64,000 nucleotides of DNA. Source: Aquabacterium commune. Its GTDB lineage: Bacteria > Pseudomonadota > Gammaproteobacteria > Burkholderiales > Burkholderiaceae_C. The position numbers and the translations under genes are program-made. This document shows, piece after piece, positions 16,501 through 40,416 of the stretch. The stretch is from positions 248,001 to 312,000 of the forward strand of contig NZ_SNXW01000002.1 of assembly GCF_004362855.1 (NCBI RefSeq). Reading direction: 5' to 3'. Under the pieces are notes generated by a model that did not search any database, was not told the DNA's origin, and saw only the letters and a program-made list of their open reading frames with translations. Numbering within the stretch: the stretch's first letter is position 1; each line of letters opens with the position of its first letter.

Positions 16501-17856
16501 TCAATCGACAACCCTGAGCGGCACCTCGAACCAGAAGCAGCTGCCCTGCCCCGGCTGGCTCATGACGCCGATCTGGCCCTGCATGACATCGACCAGGCGC
16601 TTGCAGATGGCCAGGCCCAGGCCGGTGCCACCGTACTGGCGGATGGTCTTCTCGCTCACCGGGCTGAACGGCTGGAAGAGCTGACCGACCGCGTCCGGCG
16701 CAATGCCGATGCCGGAGTCCTGCACCTCGACGTGCAGCGTGTCTTGCCCCGCAGCGGTTGGCACGGTCGAGCAGCGCACCGTGACCTGGCCTTGGTCGGT
16801 GAACTTCAGGGCATTGCCCAGGAAGTTGAGCAGCACCTGCTGGATGCGCAAGGCATCGCCCACCGCCGCCGTCGGTGCCTGGCACTCCACCACGATGGGC
16901 AGGCCCTTTTGCTGAGCCACCGAAGACAGCATCTCCACCACCTCGCGCACCACCTGCTGGGGGTCGAAGGGTTTGGCCTCCAGCGTCGCCGGGTTGACCT
17001 CCAGGCGCGAGAAATCCAGCATGTCGCTGATGATTTTGTGGATGGTCGCGCCGCAGCGGCTGACCTGCTCCACGTGGCTGAACTGCACCTCGTTGAGCGG
17101 CGACTGCCGCAGCAACTGCGTGAAACCGAGCAGGCCGTTGAGCGGGTTGCGCACCTCGTGGCTGATCTGCGCGAACAGGCGGGTGCGGTCAAGGTTGGCC
17201 TGCTGCAAGGCCGCCAAGGTGCTTTCCAGCGATGCCGCACGGGCGGCCAGGGCTTCGTTCTGCAAGCCGATGGTGCGCTGCTGGTCGGCGCCGTCGGCCG
17301 CATACCGGTCGTGCGCGCGGCGGGCCACGGCGCCAAAGGCCACGCCCAGCGCCAGGAAGCCAACTTGCATCAGCATCACGGGGTTGTCTTGCGCGCGCAT
17401 CAGCGGCGTCACCCAGCCCATGCTGTCGTTGGCCCAGTGCAGGGCACCGGCCAGCAGGGTCAGCGCCAGCCAGGCCAGGCCATCGTTGGCCCCCACCACC
17501 AGCGCCACGAACAAGGGCCACCACACCAACCACCAGACGCAGGTGTCTGCGCCCAAACCCATCCACATCAAGGCCAGGTTGACGCCGCAGAAGTTCAGCA
17601 GGATGCCCAGGTGGCTGACCGGGCGGAACCAGCGTTCGGCCAGCGGGCTTTTGACCAGCGGGAAGAGGGCAAACACCAGCGTGGCCGGCCCCGCCAGGGC
17701 CAGCGCGATGGCGCCCTGCCCCAGCCAGAGGCCGTACGCCAAGGCAAAGCCGTAGTGCCCGGCGACGGACACGAAGATCAATTCGCTGAAGCGCTGGTAG
17801 GGGACGGTCCCGGCAGGCAGGGGGCCCTGCCAGGCTGCCGAGTGCGCTGACGCCAT
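16501..17856 (-). CDS. Membrane sensor histidine kinase
   Basis: A 451-residue kinase. Residues about 25-180 contain six hydrophobic segments, a membrane sensor resembling MASE-type domains. A coiled linker (190-225) precedes HisKA with the phospho-acceptor H233 in [13 protein letters not shown], then the HATPase domain with N, G1 (DSGIGIAPD) and G2 (GGTGLGL) boxes. There is no receiver domain. The ATG at 17856 has AGGAG seven bases upstream. It lies downstream of the LuxR-type regulator and the permease-kinase on the same strand, with a 129-base gap, and may feed the same regulator. Confidence 0.9.
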
Positions 17857-17985
17857 GTACTGCTCCTGTGGCTGTCTCAAAATCTGGGTGTTTCACCCGA
17901 ACGCGAAGCCTATCGCATCCTGCAGCCACGACCGCTCACCGCCCATCGGGGTTTACGGAAAGAACCCTCTGTTGTGGTGTGCGGA

Positions 17986-18687
17986 TCACGCCTGGATGGC
18001 CTGGCTGGCCAGGGCCGCTGCAGCGGCGCGGGTCTCCACCCCCAGCTTCTCGAAGATGTGCTCGAGGTGCTTGTTGACGGTGCGGTGGCTCATGCCCAGG
18101 ATGTCGGCGATGTCGCGGTTGGTCTTGCCGCGTGCCAGCCAGGTCAGCACCTCGGTCTCGCGCGGCGTGAGGGCCGCGTGGCTGAGCCGCTCGGCCGATG
18201 CGGCAGAGGCCGCCGCAGCCGCCACGGAAAACGCCGACGAGGCGTCGCTGGCACGTTGCACGGCCTCACGGGCCTCGCGGGCCGCGCGGGCGTTGCGCAC
18301 GTGGGTGTTCAGCCGGGCCAGCACCTCTTCGATGCGCAAGGGCTTGACGACGTAGTCCACACCACCGGCGTCGAAGCCCGCCACGATGTCGGCCGTCTCG
18401 GACAGCCCGGTCATGAAGATGACGGGCACGGCCTCGCCTTGCGGGTGGGCCTTGATGCGCTGGCAGGTCTCGAAGCCACTGAGCCCCGGCATGACGCCGT
18501 CGAGCAAGATGGCATCGGGCACCACGACGTCCAGCCGGTCCAGGGCCTGCAGGCCGTCGCGCGCGACCAGCACGGTGTAGCCCTCCTGGGCCAATGCGTC
18601 GCACAGCATGCGCAGGGTGTCGGGTGCGTCGTCCACCACCAGCACGGTGCCCTGGTGGACGGGTTGGCGGTCAGGGGCGTGGTTCAT
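17986..18687 (-). CDS. LuxR-type (REC-HTH) response regulator
   Basis: A 233-residue response regulator. The receiver domain (about 13-130) has the acidic pair DD at 19-20, the phospho-acceptor D63 (AILLDGVMPG) and K in YVVKPLR. An Ala-rich linker follows, then a LuxR/NarL HTH (about 165-228, LTPRETEVLTWLARGKTNRDI). The ATG at 18687 lies 17 bases inside the upstream permease-kinase gene, showing translational coupling and a cognate pair. It probably binds near the urtA promoter, where palindromes occur at 22233-22260. Confidence 0.92.
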   Translation of the reverse strand: MNHAPDRQPVHQGTVLVVDDAPDTLRMLCDALAQEGYTVLVARDGLQALDRLDVVVPDAILLDGVMPGLSGFETCQRIKAHPQGEAVPVIFMTGLSETADIVAGFDAGGVDYVVKPLRIEEVLARLNTHVRNARAAREAREAVQRASDASSAFSVAAAAASAASAERLSHAALTPRETEVLTWLARGKTNRDIADILGMSHRTVNKHLEHIFEKLGVETRAAAAALASQAIQA

Positions 18688-21600
18688 CGGCGATGTCCTC
18701 GGTGATGTCATCGGTGATGTCCTCAACAAGATGGGGGGCCAGGCGCGCCACCAGCGCGTCCAGGTCGAAATCGTCCACGAGCTGCGCAAGCTGGTGCCAC
18801 TGTGCGGCGTGCTCAGGGGCGGCCACCTGCCATTCGCCAAGGGCCTGGCGCAAGGCCTGCACATGGCCCTTGCGCGCGAGGCGGTGGAGCTCCCAGACCG
18901 CATCGGCTGGCAGATGGCTTTCAGTGGCGGAGGTGGCAGGGGTGCCGTGCGCGTGGGCGGTGTGGGCCTCGCGCAGGGCGAGGGCCTGTGGTTCGGTCAG
19001 CCAGTGAAGGCCGAGGTGCTCGCCCAGGGCGGCCAGCAGTTCGGACTCCCGCACCGGCTTGGCCACGAAGGCCTGGCACTGGGCCGCCGCGAGGTTCTCC
19101 GGCCGGTTCTCGAACACATTGGCGGACACCAGGATGATGGGCACCGTGACGAAGCCCACCTCGCGCAGGGTGCGGGCGGTGTGCCAGCCGTCCATGTCGT
19201 CCATGCTGATGTCGAGCAGCACGGCGTCGGGACACACTTCGCGCACGCTTTCCAGGGCCTCGTGGCCGCTGGCGGCTTCGCGCACCTGGAAGCCCAGCGG
19301 CAGCAGCAGGCCGGCCAGCAACTGGCGTTGCAAGGGCTGGTCGTCCACCACCAGCAGGGTGCGCCGCGTACCGACGTAGCCTGTGACGGGTCGCAGGCCA
19401 CGGGTGAGGCCCTGGGCCGCCAGCGGTGCGCCTGCAGGTGCCATGGCCGGCGCACTGAGCGGTGCGCTGATCTCGCGCAAATACAAGCGCACGCTGAAGG
19501 TGCTGCCCTCGCCCATCACGCTTTGCACGGTCAGCTCACCGCCCATCAGCTCGCTGAGCAGGTGCGTGATGGTCAGGCCCAAGCCCGTGCCCGGTTCGCT
19601 GCTGCGCCGTCCGCCGCTGCCGCGCTCGAAGGGCAGGAAGATGCGCTCCATGTCCTGCGGCGCGATGCCGATGCCGGTGTCGATCACCTCGAAGCGCAGC
19701 ACCTCGCGGCGCGCGTCCAGGCGCAGCGTGATCTGGCCGCGTTCGGTGAAGCGCACCGCGTTGCTGCACAGGTTGAGCAGGATCTGGCGCAGGCGGCGCG
19801 CATCGGACTGCACCCAGGCGGGCACGCGGCCGCGGGTCTCCAGGCGGAAGTCCAGGCCCTTGGCCTCGGCCTGCGGCTGCACCATGCGCACGACCTCGTC
19901 GAGGAAGTCGTGCAGGGGCAGCGGGGCGGCGTCCAGGCGCAAACGGCCTGCCTCGATGCGGGCCAGGTCGAGCAGGCCATCGATCAGGCCGATGAGGTGT
20001 TCGCCGCTGCGCTGGATGGTGGTCAGAGGGCGCCGTCGGGCGCCATCGGCCGGCTCGTCCTTGAGCAGGATCTGGGCATAGCCCATGATGCTGTTGAGCG
20101 GCGTGCGCAATTCGTGCGTCATGCCGGCCACGTAGCGCGTCTTGGCCTGGTTGGCGGCCTCGGCCAGCTCCTTGGCCTGCTGCAGGGCGGCGTCGGTGCG
20201 GCGGTGAGCGTCGATTTCCTGCTGCAGCAGCTGGTTCTGGCGGTTGGAGTCGTCCTGCGCCATGCGGCGGCTCTCGGAGGCCAGCACGATCCACCAGGCG
20301 CACACGGCGGCGGCCAGCAGCAGCAAGGCGTAGGCCTTGACGAAGGGCCCATCGAGCACCGCGGCGGGCTCATGGCCTTCCTGGTAATAGACGGCCCCCA
20401 GCACGAAGGCCATCAAGGTCGCCATCGACAGGAAGACGATGAGGTAGTGCCCGACGCGGAAGTTGATGCGCCGCGACAGCCGCGCAGGCAGCACCGAGGT
20501 CAGCACGTCAGACACCTGCTCGGCCGCGCGCGAGCGGCTCTTGCAGCGGTCGTGGCAGCGCGACTCCAGCGTGCAGCACAGCGAGCAAATCGGCGCCTCG
20601 TAGGCCGGGCAGGTGGCCATGTCTTCGGACTCGAAGCTGTTGTCGCAGACCGAGCAGCGCACCATCTGCCCGGGCGCCCAGTGCGAGTGCGGCTGGCGCG
20701 CCAGGTAGTAGCGCCCGCCCGTGGCCCAGGCCAGCAGGGGCGACGCCGTCAGCGCCAGCCCCAGGGCGATGAAGGGCGCCCACGGCACCCAGGCCTCGCC
20801 GAACACGCCAGCGTGGACCATCACGGCCACCACCGCGGCCAGCAGCGTGGCGCCCAGGCCCACGGGGTTGAGGTCGTGCAGGTGCGCGCGCTTGAACTCG
20901 ATGCCCTTGGGCGACCAGCCCAGCGGCTTGTTGATGGCCAGGTCGGCCACCAGCGCCCCCACCCAGGCGATGGCCACGTTGCTGTAGAGGCCCAGCACGT
21001 GCTCCAGCGCGCCGAACACGCCCAGCGTCATCAGCAGCACGGCGATCAGCACGTTGAACACCAGCCACACCACCCGCCCCGGGTGGCTGTGCGTGAGGCG
21101 CGCGAAGAAATTGGACCAGGCCAGCGAGCCGGCGTAGGCATTGGTCACGTTGATCTTCACCTGGGACAGCACGACGAACAGCACCGTCACGCCCAGCGCC
21201 CAGCCGTGGGACGAAAACACCTCGCTGAAGCCGGCCAGGTACATCTGCGTGGGCTCCATGGCGCGGTCCACCGGCACCTCGCGCTGCAGGGCCAGGAAGG
21301 CCAGGAAGGCGCCGGCCAGCATCTTCAGCATGCCGGGCACCACCCAGCCGGGCCCGGCCACCAGCACCGCCGTCCACCAGCGCACGCGGTTGGCATGGGT
21401 TTTCTCGGGCAGGAAGCGCAGGAAGTCCACCTGCTCGCCCACCTGCAGGATGAGCGAGAACGCCACCGTGGCCGCCATGCCGAAGGCCGCCCACGAGAAG
21501 CTGCTGTCCCCCGACATGCGCCCGGCCAGCGAGGTGAATTCCACATAGGCCTGTGGCTTGTGCCACCACACCGCCACGAAAGGCGCCAGCCACAGCAGCA

Positions 21601-22213
21601 ACCACAGCGGTTGCGTCCACATCTGCAGGCGCGAGATCAGCGTGATGCCGTGCGTGGCCAACGGGATGACGAGCAGGGACGACACCACGTAGCACAGCGG
21701 CATCGACCAGCCGAACAGCATCTGCAGGGCCAGCGCCATGATGGCCGCCTCCACCGCGAAGAAGATGAAGGTGAAGCTGGCGTAGATCAGCGAGGTCAGC
21801 GTGGAGCCCAGGTAGCCAAAGCCCGCCCCACGGGTGAGCAGGTCCATGTCCACGCCATGGCGAGCCGCGTAGATGCTGATGGGCAGGCTGGTCAGGAAGG
21901 TGATGAGGCCCACGACCAGGATGGCCCACAGCGCATTGCCGAAACCCTGGTTGAGTGCGATGGCGCCGCCAATGGCCTCCAGCGCCAGGAAGGACAGCGC
22001 CCCGAAGGCCGTGTTGGCCACGCGCATCTCGCTCCATTTGCGGAAGGAGCGCGGCGTGTAGCGCAGGGCGTAGTCCTCCAGGGTCTCGTTGGCCACCCAG
22101 GCGTTGTACTCGCGGCGGATGTGGAAGATTTTCTGCCGGGCAACGGGCACGGGCGGGCTCCAGGACACACAGGCCCCTGAAGAGCGCAAGAAGCGGTCCA
22201 GCCTCAAGCGCAT
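18671..22213 (-). CDS. NCS1-type permease fused to hybrid histidine kinase (transporter-sensor)
   Basis: About 1180 residues from the ATG at 22213 (a TTG at 22228 is an alternative). In the longer numbering: residues about 35-510 form a 12-helix permease of the NCS1 purine/cytosine/amide type (EDYALRYTPRSFRKW, then EAIGGAIALNQGFG); 525-562 is a Cys cluster (CSVC, C540, C548, CC at 551-552, C558, C562); two further membrane helices lie at about 593-652; then HisKA with H705 (MTHELRTPLN), HATPase (DTGIGIAPQ; GTGLGL), and a receiver domain with D1006. The C-terminal ~100 residues are Ala/His-rich. It overlaps the LuxR regulator gene and is divergent from urt-fmd genes. By analogy with CbrA, a transporter-kinase, it probably senses urea or an amide through its permease. 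Confidence 0.88.
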   Translation of the reverse strand: MRLRLDRFLRSSGACVSWSPPVPVARQKIFHIRREYNAWVANETLEDYALRYTPRSFRKWSEMRVANTAFGALSFLALEAIGGAIALNQGFGNALWAILVVGLITFLTSLPISIYAARHGVDMDLLTRGAGFGYLGSTLTSLIYASFTFIFFAVEAAIMALALQMLFGWSMPLCYVVSSLLVIPLATHGITLISRLQMWTQPLWLLLWLAPFVAVWWHKPQAYVEFTSLAGRMSGDSSFSWAAFGMAATVAFSLILQVGEQVDFLRFLPEKTHANRVRWWTAVLVAGPGWVVPGMLKMLAGAFLAFLALQREVPVDRAMEPTQMYLAGFSEVFSSHGWALGVTVLFVVLSQVKINVTNAYAGSLAWSNFFARLTHSHPGRVVWLVFNVLIAVLLMTLGVFGALEHVLGLYSNVAIAWVGALVADLAINKPLGWSPKGIEFKRAHLHDLNPVGLGATLLAAVVAVMVHAGVFGEAWVPWAPFIALGLALTASPLLAWATGGRYYLARQPHSHWAPGQMVRCSVCDNSFESEDMATCPAYEAPICSLCCTLESRCHDRCKSRSRAAEQVSDVLTSVLPARLSRRINFRVGHYLIVFLSMATLMAFVLGAVYYQEGHEPAAVLDGPFVKAYALLLLAAAVCAWWIVLASESRRMAQDDSNRQNQLLQQEIDAHRRTDAALQQAKELAEAANQAKTRYVAGMTHELRTPLNSIMGYAQILLKDEPADGARRRPLTTIQRSGEHLIGLIDGLLDLARIEAGRLRLDAAPLPLHDFLDEVVRMVQPQAEAKGLDFRLETRGRVPAWVQSDARRLRQILLNLCSNAVRFTERGQITLRLDARREVLRFEVIDTGIGIAPQDMERIFLPFERGSGGRRSSEPGTGLGLTITHLLSELMGGELTVQSVMGEGSTFSVRLYLREISAPLSAPAMAPAGAPLAAQGLTRGLRPVTGYVGTRRTLLVVDDQPLQRQLLAGLLLPLGFQVREAASGHEALESVREVCPDAVLLDISMDDMDGWHTARTLREVGFVTVPIILVSANVFENRPENLAAAQCQAFVAKPVRESELLAALGEHLGLHWLTEPQALALREAHTAHAHGTPATSATESHLPADAVWELHRLARKGHVQALRQALGEWQVAAPEHAAQWHQLAQLVDDFDLDALVARLAPHLVEDITDDITEDIADEPRP

Positions 22214-22232
22214 GCGCCCTGCGCACAACGCC

Positions 22233-22260
22233 TACGTCAATTGACGTATTCATGGAATAC
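22233..22260. promoter_or_regulatory. Nested palindromes in the kinase/urtA divergent promoter region
   Basis: A perfect 16-bp palindrome TACGTCAATTGACGTA lies at 22233-22248. It shares its last bases with a second dyad GTATTC-ATG-GAATAC at 22246-22260. Both are in the 181-base gap between the permease-kinase gene and urtA. Perfect symmetry over 16 bp is unlikely by chance, so this is a good candidate site for the LuxR-type regulator encoded at 17986 or for another nitrogen regulator. Confidence 0.6.
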
Positions 22261-22394
22261 CCGGGGCTCCGTACTGTGTGAGCCAAGGCCGCGTCACCCG
22301 GTGCAGGCAGCGTCAAACGGCATGCACCAAGACAAGGCAGACCACGCCCTGAAATCTTCCGTCGATCCCCACTGTTGTGCAAGGAGTCCTGTCC

Positions 22395-23675
22395 ATGTCG
22401 AACCACTCTGACGATCTGTCCAAAAACCGCCGCCGCCTGCTGCAAGGCATGGGCGCCCTCCCCCTCGCCGGCATGGCGGGTGTGGCGGGCCTGGGCAGCC
22501 TGCCCGGCCTGAGCCGCGCCGCCGCACCGGCCACCTCGGCCATCAACACCACCAAGCTGGCCGTGACCGACACGGAAGTGATCGTGGGCCAGCTGCACTC
22601 GGCCACCGGCACCATGGCCATCTCGGAGACCGGCTCCATCCAGGCCGAACAGCTCGCCATCGACCAGATCAACGCCATGGGCGGCGTGCTGGGCCGCAAG
22701 ATCAAGGTCATCAAGGAAGACGGCGCCTCCGACTGGCCGACCTTCGCCGAGAAGTCCAAGAAGCTGCTGGTCAACGACAAAGTCGCCTGCGTCTTCGGCT
22801 GCTGGACGTCTGCTTCGCGCAAGGCCGTGCTGCCCATCTTCGAGAAAGAAAACGGCCTGCTGTACTACCCGACCTTCTACGAAGGCCTGGAGCAGTCCAA
22901 GAACGTGATCTACACCGGCCAGGAAGCCACGCAACAGATCATCTACAGCCTGGACTGGGGCTCGAAAGAGAAGAAGGCCAAGACCTTCTTCCTGGTCGGC
23001 TCCGACTACATCTGGCCGCGCACCTCGATGAAGATCGCGCGCAAGCACATCGAGTCGGTGGGCAAGCTGGGTTCCGTCGTCGGTGAGGAGTACTACCCGC
23101 TGGGCCACACCAACTTCAACTCCCTGATCAACAAGATCAAGGTGGCCAAGCCCGACTGCATCTTCGCCGCCGTGGTCGGTGGCTCCAACGTGGCCTTCTA
23201 CAAGCAGCTCAAGGCCGCTGGCATCACGGGTGCCAAGCAGTTCCTGCTGACCCTGTCGGTGACCGAGGACGAAATGCTGGGTGTGGGCGGCGAGAACTTC
23301 GCTGGCTTCTACAGCTCGATGAAGTACTTCCAGTCGCTGGACAACGCCAACAACAAGGCCTTCGTGGCCGCCTTCCGCAAGGCCTATGGCCCCAAGGCCG
23401 TGATCGGTGACGTGACCCAGGCCGGCTACCTCGGCCCCTGGTTGTGGAAGGCCGCGGTCGAGAAGGCCGGCAGCTTCGATGTGGACAAGGTCGTGGCGGC
23501 CTCGCCCGGCATCGAGCTGAAGACGGCGCCGGAAGGTTACGTGAAGCTGCACGCCAACCACCACCTGTGGAGCAAGTCGCGCATCGCCCAAGGCCAGACC
23601 GACGGCACCTTCAAGGTGGTGTCCGAGTCGCCCGAGCTGATCGAGCCGAACCCCTTCCCCAAGGGCTATCAATAA
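22395..23675 (+). CDS. urtA: Urea/short-chain amide ABC transporter substrate-binding protein
   Basis: A 426-residue periplasmic binding protein of the UrtA/FmdD type. A Tat-like signal (NRRRLLQGMG at about 11-20, then a hydrophobic stretch to ~43) precedes the mature domain, which begins near DTEVIVGQLHSATGTMAISE. The ATG at 22395 has an AAGGAGT box eight bases upstream. It heads urtABCDE-fmdA-fmdB. Ligand could be urea or a short amide such as formamide: in Methylophilus the related fmdDEF transporter sits beside fmdAB. A hairpin-rich 193-base gap separates it from urtB. Confidence 0.9.
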   Translation: MSNHSDDLSKNRRRLLQGMGALPLAGMAGVAGLGSLPGLSRAAAPATSAINTTKLAVTDTEVIVGQLHSATGTMAISETGSIQAEQLAIDQINAMGGVLGRKIKVIKEDGASDWPTFAEKSKKLLVNDKVACVFGCWTSASRKAVLPIFEKENGLLYYPTFYEGLEQSKNVIYTGQEATQQIIYSLDWGSKEKKAKTFFLVGSDYIWPRTSMKIARKHIESVGKLGSVVGEEYYPLGHTNFNSLINKIKVAKPDCIFAAVVGGSNVAFYKQLKAAGITGAKQFLLTLSVTEDEMLGVGGENFAGFYSSMKYFQSLDNANNKAFVAAFRKAYGPKAVIGDVTQAGYLGPWLWKAAVEKAGSFDVDKVVAASPGIELKTAPEGYVKLHANHHLWSKSRIAQGQTDGTFKVVSESPELIEPNPFPKGYQ

Positions 23676-23868: not shown

Positions 23869-24783
23869 ATGACATTCACAGACATGCTCAACATCGGGCT
23901 CATGCAAGGCTTCGCCGGGCTGAGCCTGTTTTCCGTGCTGCTGCTCATGGGCCTGGGCCTGGCGGTGATCTTCGGCCAGATGGGCGTGATCAACATGGCC
24001 CACGGTGAGTTCATGACGATCGGCGCCTACACCATCTACCTGGGCTCGACGCTGACCGAGAAGTACGCGCCCGGTCTGGTGCAGATGTACTTCCCCGTGG
24101 CCATCGTCGCGGCCTTCTTCATCGCCTTCGCGGCCGGCTGGCTGACCGAGTGGGCGCTGATCCGCCACCTCTACAAACGCCCGCTGGACACCTTGCTGGC
24201 CACCTGGGGCCTGAGCCTGGGCCTGCAGCAGGTGTTCCGCTCCACCTTCGGTCCCAAGGAAGTCAGCCCCACCCTGCCCGACTGGCTGATGGGCTCGTGG
24301 GCACCGGCCGAAGGCCTGGACATCCCCATCAACGGCCTGTTCGTGATGGGCCTGACCGCCGTGGTCACCGCCTTCCTGCTGCTGGCCCTCTACAAGGCAC
24401 GCTGGGGCCTGCGGGTGCGCGCCACGGTGAGCAACCGCGTGATGGCCAACGCCATCGGCATCAACACCAAGCAGACCGACCGGCTGACGTTTGCCATCGG
24501 CTGCGGCATCGCCGGTGTGGCGGGTGCGGCCTTCACCACGATCGGTTCCACCGGCCCGACCAGTGGCTCGCTCTACATCGTGGACAGCTTCCTGGTCGTG
24601 ACCTTCGGCGGCGCCGGCAGCTTGCTGGGCACCGTGGCCTCGGCCTTCGGCATCGCGCAGACGCAGTCCATCTCCGAGTTCTTCATGAGCGGCTCCAACG
24701 CCAAGGTGCTGACGCTGATGACCGTCATCACGATCCTGATGCTGCGCCCGCAAGGCCTGTTCGCCTCCAAGGTGCGCCGCTGA
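23869..24783 (+). CDS. urtB: Urea/amide ABC transporter permease UrtB
   Basis: A 304-residue LivH-type inner-membrane permease with about eight membrane helices and the family motif INMAHGEF near residue 42. It lacks the long N-terminal extracytoplasmic region present in the ~520-residue UrtB proteins of cyanobacteria, so it is the short form. Together with UrtC it makes the membrane channel. The ATG at 23869 follows GAGGTGGACG. It is the first gene after the hairpin-rich spacer. Confidence 0.9.
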   Translation: MTFTDMLNIGLMQGFAGLSLFSVLLLMGLGLAVIFGQMGVINMAHGEFMTIGAYTIYLGSTLTEKYAPGLVQMYFPVAIVAAFFIAFAAGWLTEWALIRHLYKRPLDTLLATWGLSLGLQQVFRSTFGPKEVSPTLPDWLMGSWAPAEGLDIPINGLFVMGLTAVVTAFLLLALYKARWGLRVRATVSNRVMANAIGINTKQTDRLTFAIGCGIAGVAGAAFTTIGSTGPTSGSLYIVDSFLVVTFGGAGSLLGTVASAFGIAQTQSISEFFMSGSNAKVLTLMTVITILMLRPQGLFASKVRR

Positions 24784-24812: not shown

Positions 24813-26012
24813 ATGACAAAAATCCAAGACTGGCTCAAACAGCAACAGCTCGGCAGCTTCCTGCTGCTGGCCGTGGTGCTGCTGGTGGTGTTCCCGCTCG
24901 GGCTGGACACCTTCCGACTCAACCTCGTGGGCAAGTACCTGACCTATGCCTTCGTGGCGCTCGGCCTGGTGATGCTGTGGGGCCATGCCGGCATCCTCAG
25001 CCTCGGCCAAGGCGTGTTCTTCGGCCTGGGCGGCTACATGATGGCCATGTTCCTCAAGCTGGAAGCGTCTGACCCCATCAGCACCAAGATCCAGTCCACG
25101 CCGGGCATCCCCGACTTCATGGACTGGAACCAGCTCACCGAGTTGCCGATGTGGTGGGTGCCCTTCAAGAGCCTGCCGTTTGCCATCGCGGCCGTGGTCA
25201 TCGTGCCCATGCTGCTGGCCTTCATCGTGAGCTTCGCGATGTTCAAGCGGCGTGTGGGCGGCGTGTACTTCGCCATCATCACGCAGGCCGTGGCCCTGGT
25301 GCTGACGGTGCTGATCATCGGCCAGCAGGGCTACACCGGCGGTGTCAACGGCATCACCGACCTGAAGACGATGCTGGGCTGGGACATCCGCACCGACGAG
25401 CACCGCCTGGTTCTGTACTACGTGTGCTGTGCGCTGCTGCTGGGCTCGGTGCTCCTGTGCCTCTGGGTGCAGAAGTCCAAGCTGGGCACCCTGCTGCTGG
25501 CCATGCGCGACAAGGAAGACCGCGTGCGCTTCTCGGGCTATGACGTCGCCATGTTCAAGGTCTTCGCCTTCTGCCTGGCGGCGGGCCTGTCGGCCATCGG
25601 TGGTGCCATGTTCACGCTGCAGGTGGGCTTCATGTCGCCGTCCTTCGTGGGCATCGTGCCCTCCATCGAGATGGTGATCTTCGCCGCGGTCGGTGGCCGC
25701 ATGAGCCTGGTGGGCGCCATCTACGGCGCGCTGCTGGTGAACTTCGGCAAGACCTACTTTTCCGAGTCCGCACCCGACCTGTGGCTGTTCCTGATGGCCG
25801 CGCTGTTCATCGGCGTGACCATGGCCTTCCCTGACGGCCTGGCCGGTTTGTGGGAGCAAAAGATCAAGCCCTGGTGGGCGCAACGCCAGGCCGACCGGAA
25901 GGCCCAGGCCGAGCGCATCCAGGCGGCCCACGCCATCTACCCGGCCGTGCTGCCTCCCGCACAAGGCCATGGCAACCAGATGCCTGGCGACATCAGCGGT
26001 CAACAAGCCTGA
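24813..26012 (+). CDS. urtC: Urea/amide ABC transporter permease UrtC
   Basis: A 399-residue LivM-type permease. Typical segments include WGHAGILSLGQGVFFGLGGY near residue 50 and FSGYDVAMFKVFAF near 240. About ten membrane helices are visible, then a cytoplasmic Gln/Ala-rich tail. I chose the ATG at 24813, preceded by AGGAG; the open frame extends far upstream inside urtB but is not coding there. It sits 29 bases after urtB and 12 before urtD. Confidence 0.92.
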   Translation: MTKIQDWLKQQQLGSFLLLAVVLLVVFPLGLDTFRLNLVGKYLTYAFVALGLVMLWGHAGILSLGQGVFFGLGGYMMAMFLKLEASDPISTKIQSTPGIPDFMDWNQLTELPMWWVPFKSLPFAIAAVVIVPMLLAFIVSFAMFKRRVGGVYFAIITQAVALVLTVLIIGQQGYTGGVNGITDLKTMLGWDIRTDEHRLVLYYVCCALLLGSVLLCLWVQKSKLGTLLLAMRDKEDRVRFSGYDVAMFKVFAFCLAAGLSAIGGAMFTLQVGFMSPSFVGIVPSIEMVIFAAVGGRMSLVGAIYGALLVNFGKTYFSESAPDLWLFLMAALFIGVTMAFPDGLAGLWEQKIKPWWAQRQADRKAQAERIQAAHAIYPAVLPPAQGHGNQMPGDISGQQA

Positions 26013-26024
26013 CAGGAGACCTCC

Positions 26025-26780
<756 letters not shown>

Positions 26781-26806: not shown

Positions 26807-27496
26807 ATGTTGCAAGTCAAGGACCTGTACGTCAGCTACGGCCAGAGCGAGGCGCTGCACGGCATCTCGTTCGAGGCCCACCAGAACGAAACCGTGGCCA
26901 TCATGGGCCGCAACGGCATGGGCAAGACCACGCTGTTCAAAAGCCTCATGGGCGTGCTGCCCACCAAGTCCGGTGACATCCACGTGGCCGGCAGCAGCGT
27001 CGTGAAGGACGAGAGCTACCGCCGCGTCGCCAAAGGCATCGCCTACGTGCCCCAGGGCCGGATGATCTTCCCCACGCTGACGGTGGAAGAGAACATCCAG
27101 ACTGGCCTGGAAAACAGCAAGACCAAGAAGATCCCGGACGACATCTACGCGCTCTTCCCCGTGCTCTTCGACATGAAGCACCGCAAGGGCGGCAACCTCT
27201 CGGGCGGCCAGCAGCAACAGCTCGCCATCGCGCGGGCCCTGGTCACCGACCCCAAGGTGCTGCTGCTCGACGAGCCCACCGAGGGCATCCAGCCGTCCAT
27301 CATCAAAGACATCGCCAAGGCGCTCAACGAGATCCGCAAGCTGCGCGAGATCACCATCGTCGTGAGCGAGCAGGTGCTGAGCTTCGCGATGGACGTGGCC
27401 GACCGCCTCTTCGTGATCGAGGGCGGACGGCTGGTGCACGAGACCACCCGCGCCGACACCGATGCCGAGCGCATCAAAGCCTACCTGTCTGTTTAA
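26807..27496 (+). CDS. urtE: Urea/amide ABC transporter ATP-binding protein UrtE
   Basis: A 229-residue LivF-type ATPase. Walker A is GRNGMGKTT near residue 37, the signature LSGGQQQQ near 132 and Walker B LLLDEPTEGI near 155. The ATG at 26807 gives the standard MLQVKDLYVSYG start; the longer open frame upstream is out of phase with the real gene urtD. It is followed 12 bases later by fmdA, so transport and hydrolysis are co-expressed. Confidence 0.94.
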   Translation: MLQVKDLYVSYGQSEALHGISFEAHQNETVAIMGRNGMGKTTLFKSLMGVLPTKSGDIHVAGSSVVKDESYRRVAKGIAYVPQGRMIFPTLTVEENIQTGLENSKTKKIPDDIYALFPVLFDMKHRKGGNLSGGQQQQLAIARALVTDPKVLLLDEPTEGIQPSIIKDIAKALNEIRKLREITIVVSEQVLSFAMDVADRLFVIEGGRLVHETTRADTDAERIKAYLSV

Positions 27497-27508: not shown

Positions 27509-28738
27509 ATGGCCGACACCCTGATCAAAGTGGACCTGACCCAATCGCCCACCCTCAACGAGAACATCCACAACCGCTGGCACCCGGACATCCCGATGGC
27601 CTGCTGGGTCAACCCCGGTGACGAGTTCATCCTGGAAACGTTCGACTGGACCGGCGGTTTCATCCAGAACAACGATTCGGCCGATGACGTCCGCGACATC
27701 GACCTGAGCACCGTGCACTACCTCAGCGGCCCCGTGGGCGTGAAGGGCGCCGAGCCGGGCGACCTGCTGGTGGTGGACCTGCTGGACATCGGCGCCAAGC
27801 AAGACAGCCTGTGGGGCTTCAACGGCTTCTTCAGCAAGAAGAACGGTGGCGGCTTCCTGACCGAACACTACCCGCTGGCGCAGAAGTCCATCTGGGACAT
27901 CCACGGCATGTTCACCAAGAGCCGCCACGTGCCCGGCGTGAGCTACGCCGGCCTGATCCACCCCGGCCTGATCGGCTGCCTGCCCGACCACAAGATGCTG
28001 GAGATGTGGAACACGCGCGAGCAAGAGCTGATCGACTCCGACCCGAGCAACACCGGCCTGGCCAACCCACCCTTTGCCGCCACCGCCCACATGGGCCGCC
28101 TCACCGGCGAAGCCAAAGACAAGGCCGCCGCCACCGCGGCACGCACTGTGCCCCCGCGCGAACACGGCGGCAACTGCGACATCAAGGACCTGTCGCGCGG
28201 CTCCAAGGTGTTCTTCCCCGTGTACGTGGATGGCGCTGGACTGAGCGTGGGCGACCTGCACTTCAGCCAGGGCGACGGCGAAATCACCTTCTGCGGCGCC
28301 ATCGAGATGGCCGGCTGGGTGCACATGAAGGTCACGCTCATCAAGGGCGGCATGGCCAAGTACGGCATCAAGAACCCGATCTTCAAGCCCAGCCCGATCA
28401 AGCCGGTTTACAACGACTACCTGATCTTCGAAGGCATCTCGGTGGACGAGCAAGGCAAGCAGCTCTACCTGGACGTGAACGTGGCCTACCGCCAGGCCTG
28501 CCTCAACGCCATCGAGTACCTCAAGAAGTTCGGCTACAGCGGCGCCCAGGCTTACTCCATCCTGGGGACGGCACCGGTGCAAGGTCACATCAGCGGCGTG
28601 GTGGACGTGCCTAACGCCTGCGCCACCTTGTGGCTGCCCACGGAGATCTTCGAGTTCGACATCAACCCGACGGCGGCAGGCCCGACGAAGTTCCTCGACG
28701 GCAGCGTCCAGATGCCGATTTCTCCGGACGTGAAGTAA
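27509..28738 (+). CDS. fmdA: Formamidase (acetamidase/formamidase family)
   Basis: A 409-residue FmdA that hydrolyses formamide (and other short amides less well) to ammonia and the acid in the cytoplasm. The sequence is collinear with the family throughout: HNRWHPDIPM near the start, PGLIGCLPD near residue 153, and GGNCDIKDL near 222 in the metal-site region. The ATG at 27509 follows AAGGAGCAATGCC. Its position directly after urtE shows that the ABC system brings in its substrate or related compounds. It is unrelated in sequence to the amiE gene at 40417. Confidence 0.94.
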   Translation: MADTLIKVDLTQSPTLNENIHNRWHPDIPMACWVNPGDEFILETFDWTGGFIQNNDSADDVRDIDLSTVHYLSGPVGVKGAEPGDLLVVDLLDIGAKQDSLWGFNGFFSKKNGGGFLTEHYPLAQKSIWDIHGMFTKSRHVPGVSYAGLIHPGLIGCLPDHKMLEMWNTREQELIDSDPSNTGLANPPFAATAHMGRLTGEAKDKAAATAARTVPPREHGGNCDIKDLSRGSKVFFPVYVDGAGLSVGDLHFSQGDGEITFCGAIEMAGWVHMKVTLIKGGMAKYGIKNPIFKPSPIKPVYNDYLIFEGISVDEQGKQLYLDVNVAYRQACLNAIEYLKKFGYSGAQAYSILGTAPVQGHISGVVDVPNACATLWLPTEIFEFDINPTAAGPTKFLDGSVQMPISPDVK

Positions 28739-28759: not shown

Positions 28760-29113
28760 ATGCCGACCTACGACTATGCATGTCCGGACTGCGGGGGCTT
28801 CGACGCCTTGCGCAGCCTCTCCGCCCGCAACGACCCGGCCGCCTGCCCCGACTGCGGCATCGCCTCCCCGCGGGTGTTCGTGAGCGCACCGCGCCTGGCC
28901 TGCGTGAGCAGCGAGACGCGCTTCGCCATGGACACCAACGAGCGCGCCCGGCACGAGCCGCGCACCTCCAAGAGCGTCGATGGCAGCTACGGCCGCCTCA
29001 AGCACCCCTCGGGATGCGGTTGTTGCTCAAGCGCCAAAAAGGCGAGCACGGTGCGCACGCCCGATGGCTCGAAAACCTTCCCCAGCAAGCGCCCCTGGAT
29101 GATCAGCCACTGA
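28760..29113 (+). CDS. fmdB: FmdB family zinc-ribbon protein
   Basis: A 117-residue protein starting MPTYDYACPDCG, with a zinc ribbon formed by C8, C11, C29 and C32. FmdB was proposed as a regulator of formamidase expression in Methylophilus; small FmdB-type zinc ribbons are also common elsewhere without a proven role. The C-terminal half is basic and has a second Cys group (SGCGCCSSAKK), which may bind metal. It is the last gene of the urt-fmd operon and converges with the M15 peptidase gene. Confidence 0.88.
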   Translation: MPTYDYACPDCGGFDALRSLSARNDPAACPDCGIASPRVFVSAPRLACVSSETRFAMDTNERARHEPRTSKSVDGSYGRLKHPSGCGCCSSAKKASTVRTPDGSKTFPSKRPWMISH

Positions 29114-40207: not shown

Positions 40208-40416
40208 GGAAACGGGATGGTGGGGACAGGGGCGACGGCTGGCACCACAAGGGGGCACGGCGGACCCGGATTGTGCGCCATGCCCGGCGACACCGTGATG
40301 GCGCCGGCGCAAAGCCTTCCACCTGCGTCAAACAACGTATTGAGCGCCAGCGCGCCGCTTCGAACAATGGCAGGCGTTGCGTCCCGCCCCCGTTCCACCC
40401 CTCACAGGAGATCCCC

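Follow-up and report, generated by a model that had tools for sequence, protein, structure and literature searches.

What does a histidine kinase detect when its input domain is built like a nutrient permease, and which genes does it control? The question is raised by a 64,000-nucleotide stretch of the Aquabacterium commune genome (contig NZ_SNXW01000002.1, positions 248,001 to 312,000; hereafter the window, whose numbering is used throughout), in which the gene for such a kinase is encoded divergently from a putative urea and amide uptake operon. An earlier note, made by a model from the letters alone, had described the protein as an NCS1-type permease fused to a hybrid kinase and had proposed a distinct sensing system for amides and urea. 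As far as sequence can go, that proposal is well supported. The explanation that we favour, and consider probable, is a two-component system in which a transceptor senses short-chain amides or urea and the genes for importing and hydrolysing them are turned on in response. It draws on the predicted fold of the permease, on conserved gene linkage and on a palindrome that recurs with the sensor. The sensor module comprises the following features.

18671 to 22228, minus strand: hybrid sensor kinase (NCS1-permease/Cys-cluster/HisKA-HATPase-REC), 1,185 amino acids in its longest open reading frame (ORF), TTG start
20831 to 22072, minus strand: NCS1-like permease domain, sensor residues 12-425 of alignment A1, from fold search and hhalign
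20543 to 20656, minus strand: eight-Cys cluster, C484-C521 in sensor numbering
20192 to 20461, minus strand: helix 549-576 and long helix 585-638, leading into HisKA, from the secondary structure of the model, partly at low confidence
19946 to 20146, minus strand: HisKA with H705, hybrid residues 695-761
19478 to 19804, minus strand: HATPase_c, hybrid residues 809-917
19025 to 19354, minus strand: receiver domain (REC) with D1006, hybrid residues 959-1068
17986 to 18687, minus strand: REC-LuxR (GerE) response regulator with D63, from a domain match
22233 to 22248, strandless: 16-bp perfect palindrome TACGTCAATTGACGTA, predicted operator, between the divergent genes
22272 to 22277, plus strand: -10-like TACTGT directed towards urtA, at conserved spacing from the operator

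The sensor is a hybrid kinase with a divergent NCS1 permease

A single protein indeed carries the permease, the Cys cluster, the helices, HisKA, HATPase and REC. Candidate start codons include TTG 22228, ATG 22213 and GTG 22150; the stop codon (18671) and the ATG of the regulator gene (18687) place the two genes in a 17-nucleotide overlap (18671-18687), and H705, D1006 and the regulator's D63 lie where the earlier note had put them. With HisKA, HATPase and REC, their phospho-acceptors and an adjoining regulator gene, the pair has the make-up of a hybrid two-component system. A scan of public genomes with the permease part gave 150 relatives, of which the best 80 were fetched; these are the closest relatives rather than a random sample. 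The hybrid ORF is at least 1,074 amino acids long in 78 of the 80, the other two running off the end of a contig, and the HisKA motif ELRTPL is kept in 77, so the ORF is not a chance one.

The identity of the permease had to be sought beyond curated families. The 639-residue sensor part of the window protein has no match among the Pfam models; the sensor parts of 64 relatives, searched against Pfam at E ≤ 1, gave scattered weak matches, the best at 0.02 and none at 1e-6. The NCS1 family PF02133 has no match in the host genome at E 0.001 and none in 65 sensor rows, and neither phmmer nor a profile search against PDB sequences found a convincing relative of the sensor. A structure model built from 65 aligned sensors (predicted local distance difference test, pLDDT, 75.9; predicted template modelling score, pTM, 0.76) was then compared with known folds. 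The five best PDB matches are CodB/Mhp1 (E 3e-9 to 1e-7), with TM-scores by target of 0.76-0.78 for CodB and 0.64-0.74 for Mhp1, and a sodium/iodide symporter ranks sixth (E 1.5e-5). Aligned by hhalign with six NCS1 proteins, the sensor reaches 97.8% and E 1e-12 over 381 columns of the permease core; membership of SLC5 was rejected, the same comparison with PutP, ActP and PanF giving only 0.2% and E 0.39. Because the fold matches and the profile kinship agree and the SLC5 comparison fails, the permease is, on modelled fold and profile evidence, a divergent branch of NCS1 that the curated family does not include. The NCS1 assignment of the earlier note is upheld in this form, with PF02133 itself unmatched.

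Residue invariance was scored over the 80 rows; 38 of the 118 called sensors lie outside that set. Each of the eight Cys residues is invariant, as are K317 (hybrid K358), N319 and N322, and E224 (hybrid E265), Q225 and D227 (sensor numbering) are kept in all 80 rows. By hhalign, K317 aligns with T278 of CodB, at a position that we take to be near the sodium site of NCS1 transporters. The Cys region is modelled, at low confidence, as short strands, with two long helices after it.

The sensor is not always joined to the same output. In two loci (L123 8257-10914 and L144 8281-10965) the NCS1-Cys sensor sits on a shorter kinase of 885 and 894 amino acids that, judged by eye, ends after the ATPase part, and a different regulator gene (416-422 amino acids) is next to it, near fmdA. 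On gene content, this is a natural swap of output domains with the formamidase link kept. The hybrid kinase of a further locus (L156 8959-10815) has a Cys-rich beginning, lacks an NCS1 part, matches only the last part of the sensor profile and adjoins a REC-LuxR regulator gene; it is possibly a relative that lost the permease.

The sensor is linked to amide and urea genes across the phylum

The operon that faces the sensor gene, the neighbouring kinase and the amiE gene with its operator variant are as follows.

22395 to 23675, plus strand: urtA-type substrate-binding protein, UrtA model (TIGR03407)
23869 to 24783, plus strand: urtB permease
24813 to 26012, plus strand: urtC permease
26025 to 26780, plus strand: urtD ATPase
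26807 to 27496, plus strand: urtE ATPase (urtB to urtE are ORFs with homologues in conserved order, named by context)
27509 to 28738, plus strand: fmdA formamidase, NF045496, 744.4 bits (cut-off 500)
28760 to 29113, plus strand: fmdB-type zinc-ribbon protein, from a model match
16501 to 17856, minus strand: second membrane histidine kinase with HisKA and HATPase, from a domain match; adjoins the module but lies outside its conserved part
40324 to 40339, plus strand: operator variant TGCGTCAAACAACGTA, 77 bp before the amiE start codon
40417 to 41457, plus strand: amiE aliphatic amidase, predicted regulon member, 90% identical to the amidase of locus L280

The divergent urtABCDE-fmdA-fmdB arrangement was borne out, the UrtA and formamidase models both scoring above cut-off. 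A phylum sample of 398 genomes was searched with the sensor profile, at most three candidates being scored per genome. The profile matched in 56 genomes, 52 of which remained after four weak or partial matches were dropped (G070, G194, G236 and G288). UrtA, called at E 1e-110 or better, is present in 51 of these 52 genomes vs 116 of the 346 others (Fisher p 1e-20). Forty further regions from the sampled genomes, together with the 80 relatives and the window, gave 121 loci, in 120 of which (all except L156) tblastn found the sensor. With thresholds of 38% identity for urtA and 50% for fmdA and urease, urtA was found in 86 of the 120 sensor loci, fmdA in 50 and the urease alpha gene in 26, and 103 hold at least one of urtA, fmdA, ureA and ureC. 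The regulator matched in 116. This is the tabulation of neighbours that the earlier note had called for; it had named a permease of another family, or homologues inconsistently linked to urt and fmd genes, as what would count against its reading, and neither was found. The second membrane kinase that it had included is present at 16501-17856, but its membrane part recurs in only 7 of the 120 loci and we therefore exclude it from the system; on this distribution it is a lineage-specific neighbour, not part of the conserved module.

Two arrangements recur, one with the sensor gene divergent from urtABCDE-fmdA and one with it beside urease and/or canonical urtA genes; in Herminiimonas (L027 and L028) the gene opposite the sensor gene is fmdA itself, and urt is missing. 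A tree of all 118 called sensors, made by a quick method with support from the Shimodaira-Hasegawa-like approximate likelihood ratio test (SH-aLRT) only, groups 31 urea-type rows in a clade of 51 rows that contains no amide-type row (support 99). Eight urea-type rows (L018, L019, L134, L137, L139, L142, L143 and L146) and L017, which has both partners, lie among amide-type rows, and it follows that partners switched more than once. The two clean amide-type and urea-type branches of an 80-row tree were overturned by this larger tree, and the residue differences between the types (32 and 28 rows of the 80-row tree) may mark only that clade. In L017, L018 and L019, whose sensors belong to the amide-type branch, urease genes come right after the regulator gene; L017 has urt-fmd too, on the other side of the sensor and regulator genes.

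The host genome holds a single copy of the sensor and one UrtA above cut-off, that of the window, with a urease alpha gene elsewhere. The window UrtA scores 517.6 bits against the curated cut-off of 492.75, vs 595 and 587 bits for two urea-type relatives, so its substrate may differ from theirs. A cluster of urt, fmdA and amiE has been argued to import amides in B. japonicum (PMC3098086), and by the same argument the window urt operon is probably used for amides, either in addition to urea or in its place.

A palindrome recurs at the sensor-linked genes

Between the divergent sensor and urtA genes lies a palindrome, overlooked in the earlier note, of the form TACGTCA-NN-TGACGTA. In the window, TACGTCAATTGACGTA is the sole match at up to three mismatches to the exact pattern, and shuffled sequences gave 0. 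In the 2.30 Mb of the 121 loci, TACGTCANNTGACGTA occurs at up to two mismatches in 63 places, vs 0 in one base-shuffled copy; their sequence contexts put 59 of them in the gap that separates the sensor gene from its divergent partner, or else at urtA or fmdA, and only L005:6653, L014:6725, L022:1780 and L035:14387 fall elsewhere. The core TACG-N8-CGTA occurs 101 times in the same 2.30 Mb, 85 of them near the start of the sensor gene, urtA, fmdA or ureA. Of the 86 sensor loci with urtA, 76 have the core in the interval from -450 to +250 around the start of urtA; L132 has it before fmdA instead.

As a control, 60 of the 116 genomes with UrtA but without a strong sensor match were taken (40 regions and 20 loci), and none of the 60 has the core upstream of urtA. 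Further urtA genes of sensor genomes have it in 5 of 10 cases in one set and 4 of 20 in another; one of these four, L250, has the core only and looks like chance. The core stands at urtA genes unlinked to the sensor gene, approximately 40 kb (G389), 99 kb (G019) and 243 kb (G379) away, and before some separate fmdA genes in relatives, whereas in sampled genomes with the sensor at the amide operon, such as G035, G217, G289 and G335, the second urtA is without it. Because the palindrome is common to them, the linkage of the sensor to amide and urea genes extends to unlinked urtA, to amiE and to separate fmdA genes. We predict from this pattern that the palindrome is an operator bound by the REC-LuxR regulator. 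The recognition region of the regulator reads TVDKHLE mostly where half-sites are TACGC (regulators of L117-L121) and TVNKHLE mostly where they are TACGT, with L124 as an exception; a co-change of recognition region and half-site is possible.

Promoter geometry and the predicted regulon

When 66 non-redundant sites, nearly all before urtA, were aligned on the first base of the operator, an A at +40 (76%) and a T at +44 (77%) stood out. This pattern suggests a -10-like element at fixed spacing and activation of urtA; from that element the operator centre would lie near -43, in the position of a class II activator.

The predicted regulon includes amiE. Twelve loci of the genus with a second recurrent site type or a similar one were fetched (L280-L291), and in 11 of them an aliphatic amidase gene at least 90% identical to that of L280 lies just downstream of the site, L289 having none. 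The eight of these amidases that were scanned all score at least 697 bits on the aliphatic amidase model (cut-off 427; L280, 706.8 bits). The window variant TGCGTCAAACAACGTA differs by one base from the site before amiE in relatives. At a further site, L298 and L299 have weaker amidase homologues, at 236-238 bits and below the cut-off, and a TACGCCA-type site is followed by canonical urtA in all five chosen loci (L292-L296).

The only other place in the host genome that matches the operator with two mismatches or fewer (C10:117590-117605; L190 4991-5006) is 94 bp upstream of a gene for a Gram-negative porin. An amide/urea porin also belongs to the fmd cluster of Methylophilus, beside which the host site is suggestive; as a single case not above control, it was not counted as regulon evidence.

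Proposed mechanism and alternatives

In the explanation that we favour, a specialised permease domain of the NCS1 type, lying in the inner membrane, would bind a short-chain amide or urea, and a conformational change would be relayed to HisKA by way of the Cys cluster and the final helices. Phosphate would move from H705 to D1006, to D63 of the LuxR-type regulator or to both, and a dimer of the phosphorylated regulator would bind TACGTCA-NN-TGACGTA, centred approximately 43 bp before the transcription start. The regulator would thereby activate urtABCDE-fmdAB and, elsewhere in the genome, amiE, and the imported amides would be hydrolysed to ammonia. We also lean, with somewhat less assurance, towards a broader reading in which an NCS1 fold has turned into a nutrient receptor: phylum-wide NCS1 transceptor kinases with the invariant Lys (K317) and an eight-Cys coupling module would govern amide and urea nitrogen use via one conserved operator, with repeated switches between fmdA and urease partners and with the module moved onto another kinase type while the formamidase link was kept. 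The invariant Lys would then sit where, we presume, NCS1 transporters bind sodium.

Several observations weigh against this explanation. The source of the signal could be the Cys cluster rather than the permease. No partner gene was found in the fetched stretch of 17 of the 120 sensor loci, several of them on short contigs. The 8-base core is not rare alone, at 26 per 2.3 Mb of shuffled sequence vs the 101 observed. Ten of the 86 urtA starts are without it; five of these (L125, L126, L128, L129 and L130) have a variant with one or two mismatches, and the others (L132, L133, L138, L140 and L141) have nothing close to the core there, though the sensor gene adjoins urtA. Many second urtA genes in sensor genomes are likewise without it (5 of 10 and 16 of 20), as is the surrounding of the host's urease gene, and the sites before separate fmdA genes and before the window amiE have no TANNNT at the spacing seen at urtA. 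Across whole genomes, the pattern at up to two mismatches is not commoner than a backwards-read control (2 vs 4 per strand in the host); all 42 genus genomes examined have such matches, and in most of them the backwards control has more. Only recurrence at the same genes is therefore informative.

Among the alternatives, the one that survives best, though we think it unlikely, holds that the permease is a working transporter, the protein being importer and sensor in one like CbrA, and that what the kinase reads is either transport turnover or the nitrogen status of the cytoplasm. Conservation of the polar residues E224, Q225, D227, K317, N319 and N322 in all 80 rows fits this idea, as does the transport of histidine by CbrA, described in PMC13022988; however, the regulated operon already holds a dedicated ATP-binding cassette (ABC) importer, and in P. 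fluorescens activation of the regulator was independent of transport through the SLC5 domain, according to PMC5715377.

More doubtful still is the notion that the NCS1 domain is a mere membrane anchor, with the eight-Cys cluster reading metal or redox state or with contact to the Urt transporter as the signal. The invariance of all eight Cys residues is what one would expect from it, but many permease residues are equally invariant, beyond the needs of an anchor, and AmiE, FmdA and urease are not known to need a common metal. In the two loci with swapped output domains permease and Cys cluster stay together by fmdA, and these loci do not separate the two parts.

It is improbable, in our estimate, that the palindrome belongs to another regulator of nitrogen genes and that the kinase is a neighbour by history. 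The urea genes of P. stutzeri are under NtrC (PMC8443478), some sensor loci are without the site, and binding of the regulator to the palindrome is a prediction. Set against this, the core is absent from all 60 urtA upstream regions of sensor-less genomes and present at some unlinked urtA genes where the sensor exists, CrbR, likewise LuxR-type, acts at an inverted repeat (PMC5715377), and with formamide and acetamide an ntrC mutant of P. stutzeri fared better, not worse (PMC8443478).

NCS1 transporters of known substrate carry nucleobases, hydantoin and allantoin-like compounds. That the sensor detects such a compound as a mere predictor of urea supply is in line with the fold matches 7qoa and 4d1a, going by their PDB titles, but has equally little likelihood, since what recurs as partner is formamidase, aliphatic amidase, urease or Urt, and no nucleobase-degrading enzyme appeared among the scanned neighbour proteins, a small part of all neighbours.

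Relation to known systems

The favoured explanation has its closest parallel in CrbS/CrbR, in which, as PMC5715377 describes, a hybrid histidine kinase carries a transporter domain, the regulator is LuxR-type, the regulon serves uptake and use of one nutrient, and an inverted-repeat operator (at -52 to -36) lies just upstream of the promoter. CrbS unites SLC5 with a STAC linker and responds to acetate, whereas here an NCS1 domain is combined with an eight-Cys cluster and helices, and the predicted signals are amides or urea. CbrA is likewise a permease-kinase fusion with a LeuT-type fold (PMC13022988), but it is an SLC5-STAC protein for histidine, and the window sensor has another transporter family and gene context; RpuS is another SLC5-STAC kinase fusion (PMC9100948). 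CodB and Mhp1 are the best structural matches of the modelled permease and its apparent kin by profile; they are stand-alone transporters, the sensor sequence is too distant for PF02133, and CodB has T278 where the sensor has the invariant K317.

The regulated genes also have precedents. The Methylophilus fmdCABDEF cluster similarly joins formamidase to an amide/urea ABC importer, and its genes are induced by formamide and urea, according to a review whose passages on the cluster name a putative positive regulator but no kinase sensor (PMC10781810). In B. japonicum, FmdA and AmiE are encoded beside a second Urt-like transporter, again with no kinase sensor named in the passage on this Bradyrhizobium amide cluster (PMC3098086). 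P. veronii has a urt-fmdA-amiE cluster without amiC/amiR and uses acetamide and formamide, and AmiC/AmiR likewise controls the aliphatic amidase gene amiE (both PMC13209695). AmiC/AmiR consists of a binding protein and an RNA antiterminator, in contrast to the predicted kinase, regulator and DNA operator here. Among the titles and abstract openings of the matches listed in the open-access literature, with subscription papers mostly outside, there was no NCS1-kinase fusion and no kinase controlling urt-fmd-amiE clusters.

Transceptor kinases of the SLC5-STAC family are known already; new here are the NCS1 family assignment, the conserved palindrome and the predicted regulon, all drawn from sequence. 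If the favoured explanation is true, SLC5 is not the only transporter family to have given rise to receptors; a second one did so with what appears to be a different linker, and it would allow the way in which a LeuT fold passes a signal to a kinase to be tested independently. The sensor and regulator would then be a candidate for the control behind formamide and urea induction of urt-fmd-amiE clusters, and the palindrome may help to tell which Urt-type transporters fall under amide control. The pairing of permease-kinase and regulator across Proteobacteria, as read from these genomes, points to a little-noticed way of sensing urea and amide nitrogen.

Other features of the loci

A scan of 12000-34000 against Rfam gave one sub-threshold microRNA match, taken as chance. 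The fmdB product is an RPWMISH-domain zinc-ribbon protein (155.8 bits). Scanned neighbours of the sensor genes also included DUF2126 amidoligase, ATP-grasp, HrpA, CstA, AsmA and metal ATPase proteins, which were dropped as unrelated. In six loci of the urea-type clade (L031, L036, L040, L042, L048 and L068) a homologue of the DUF2126 amidoligase is encoded close to the sensor gene; five of the six also encode an ATP-grasp protein of the circularly permuted kind, the representatives scanned being those of L031.

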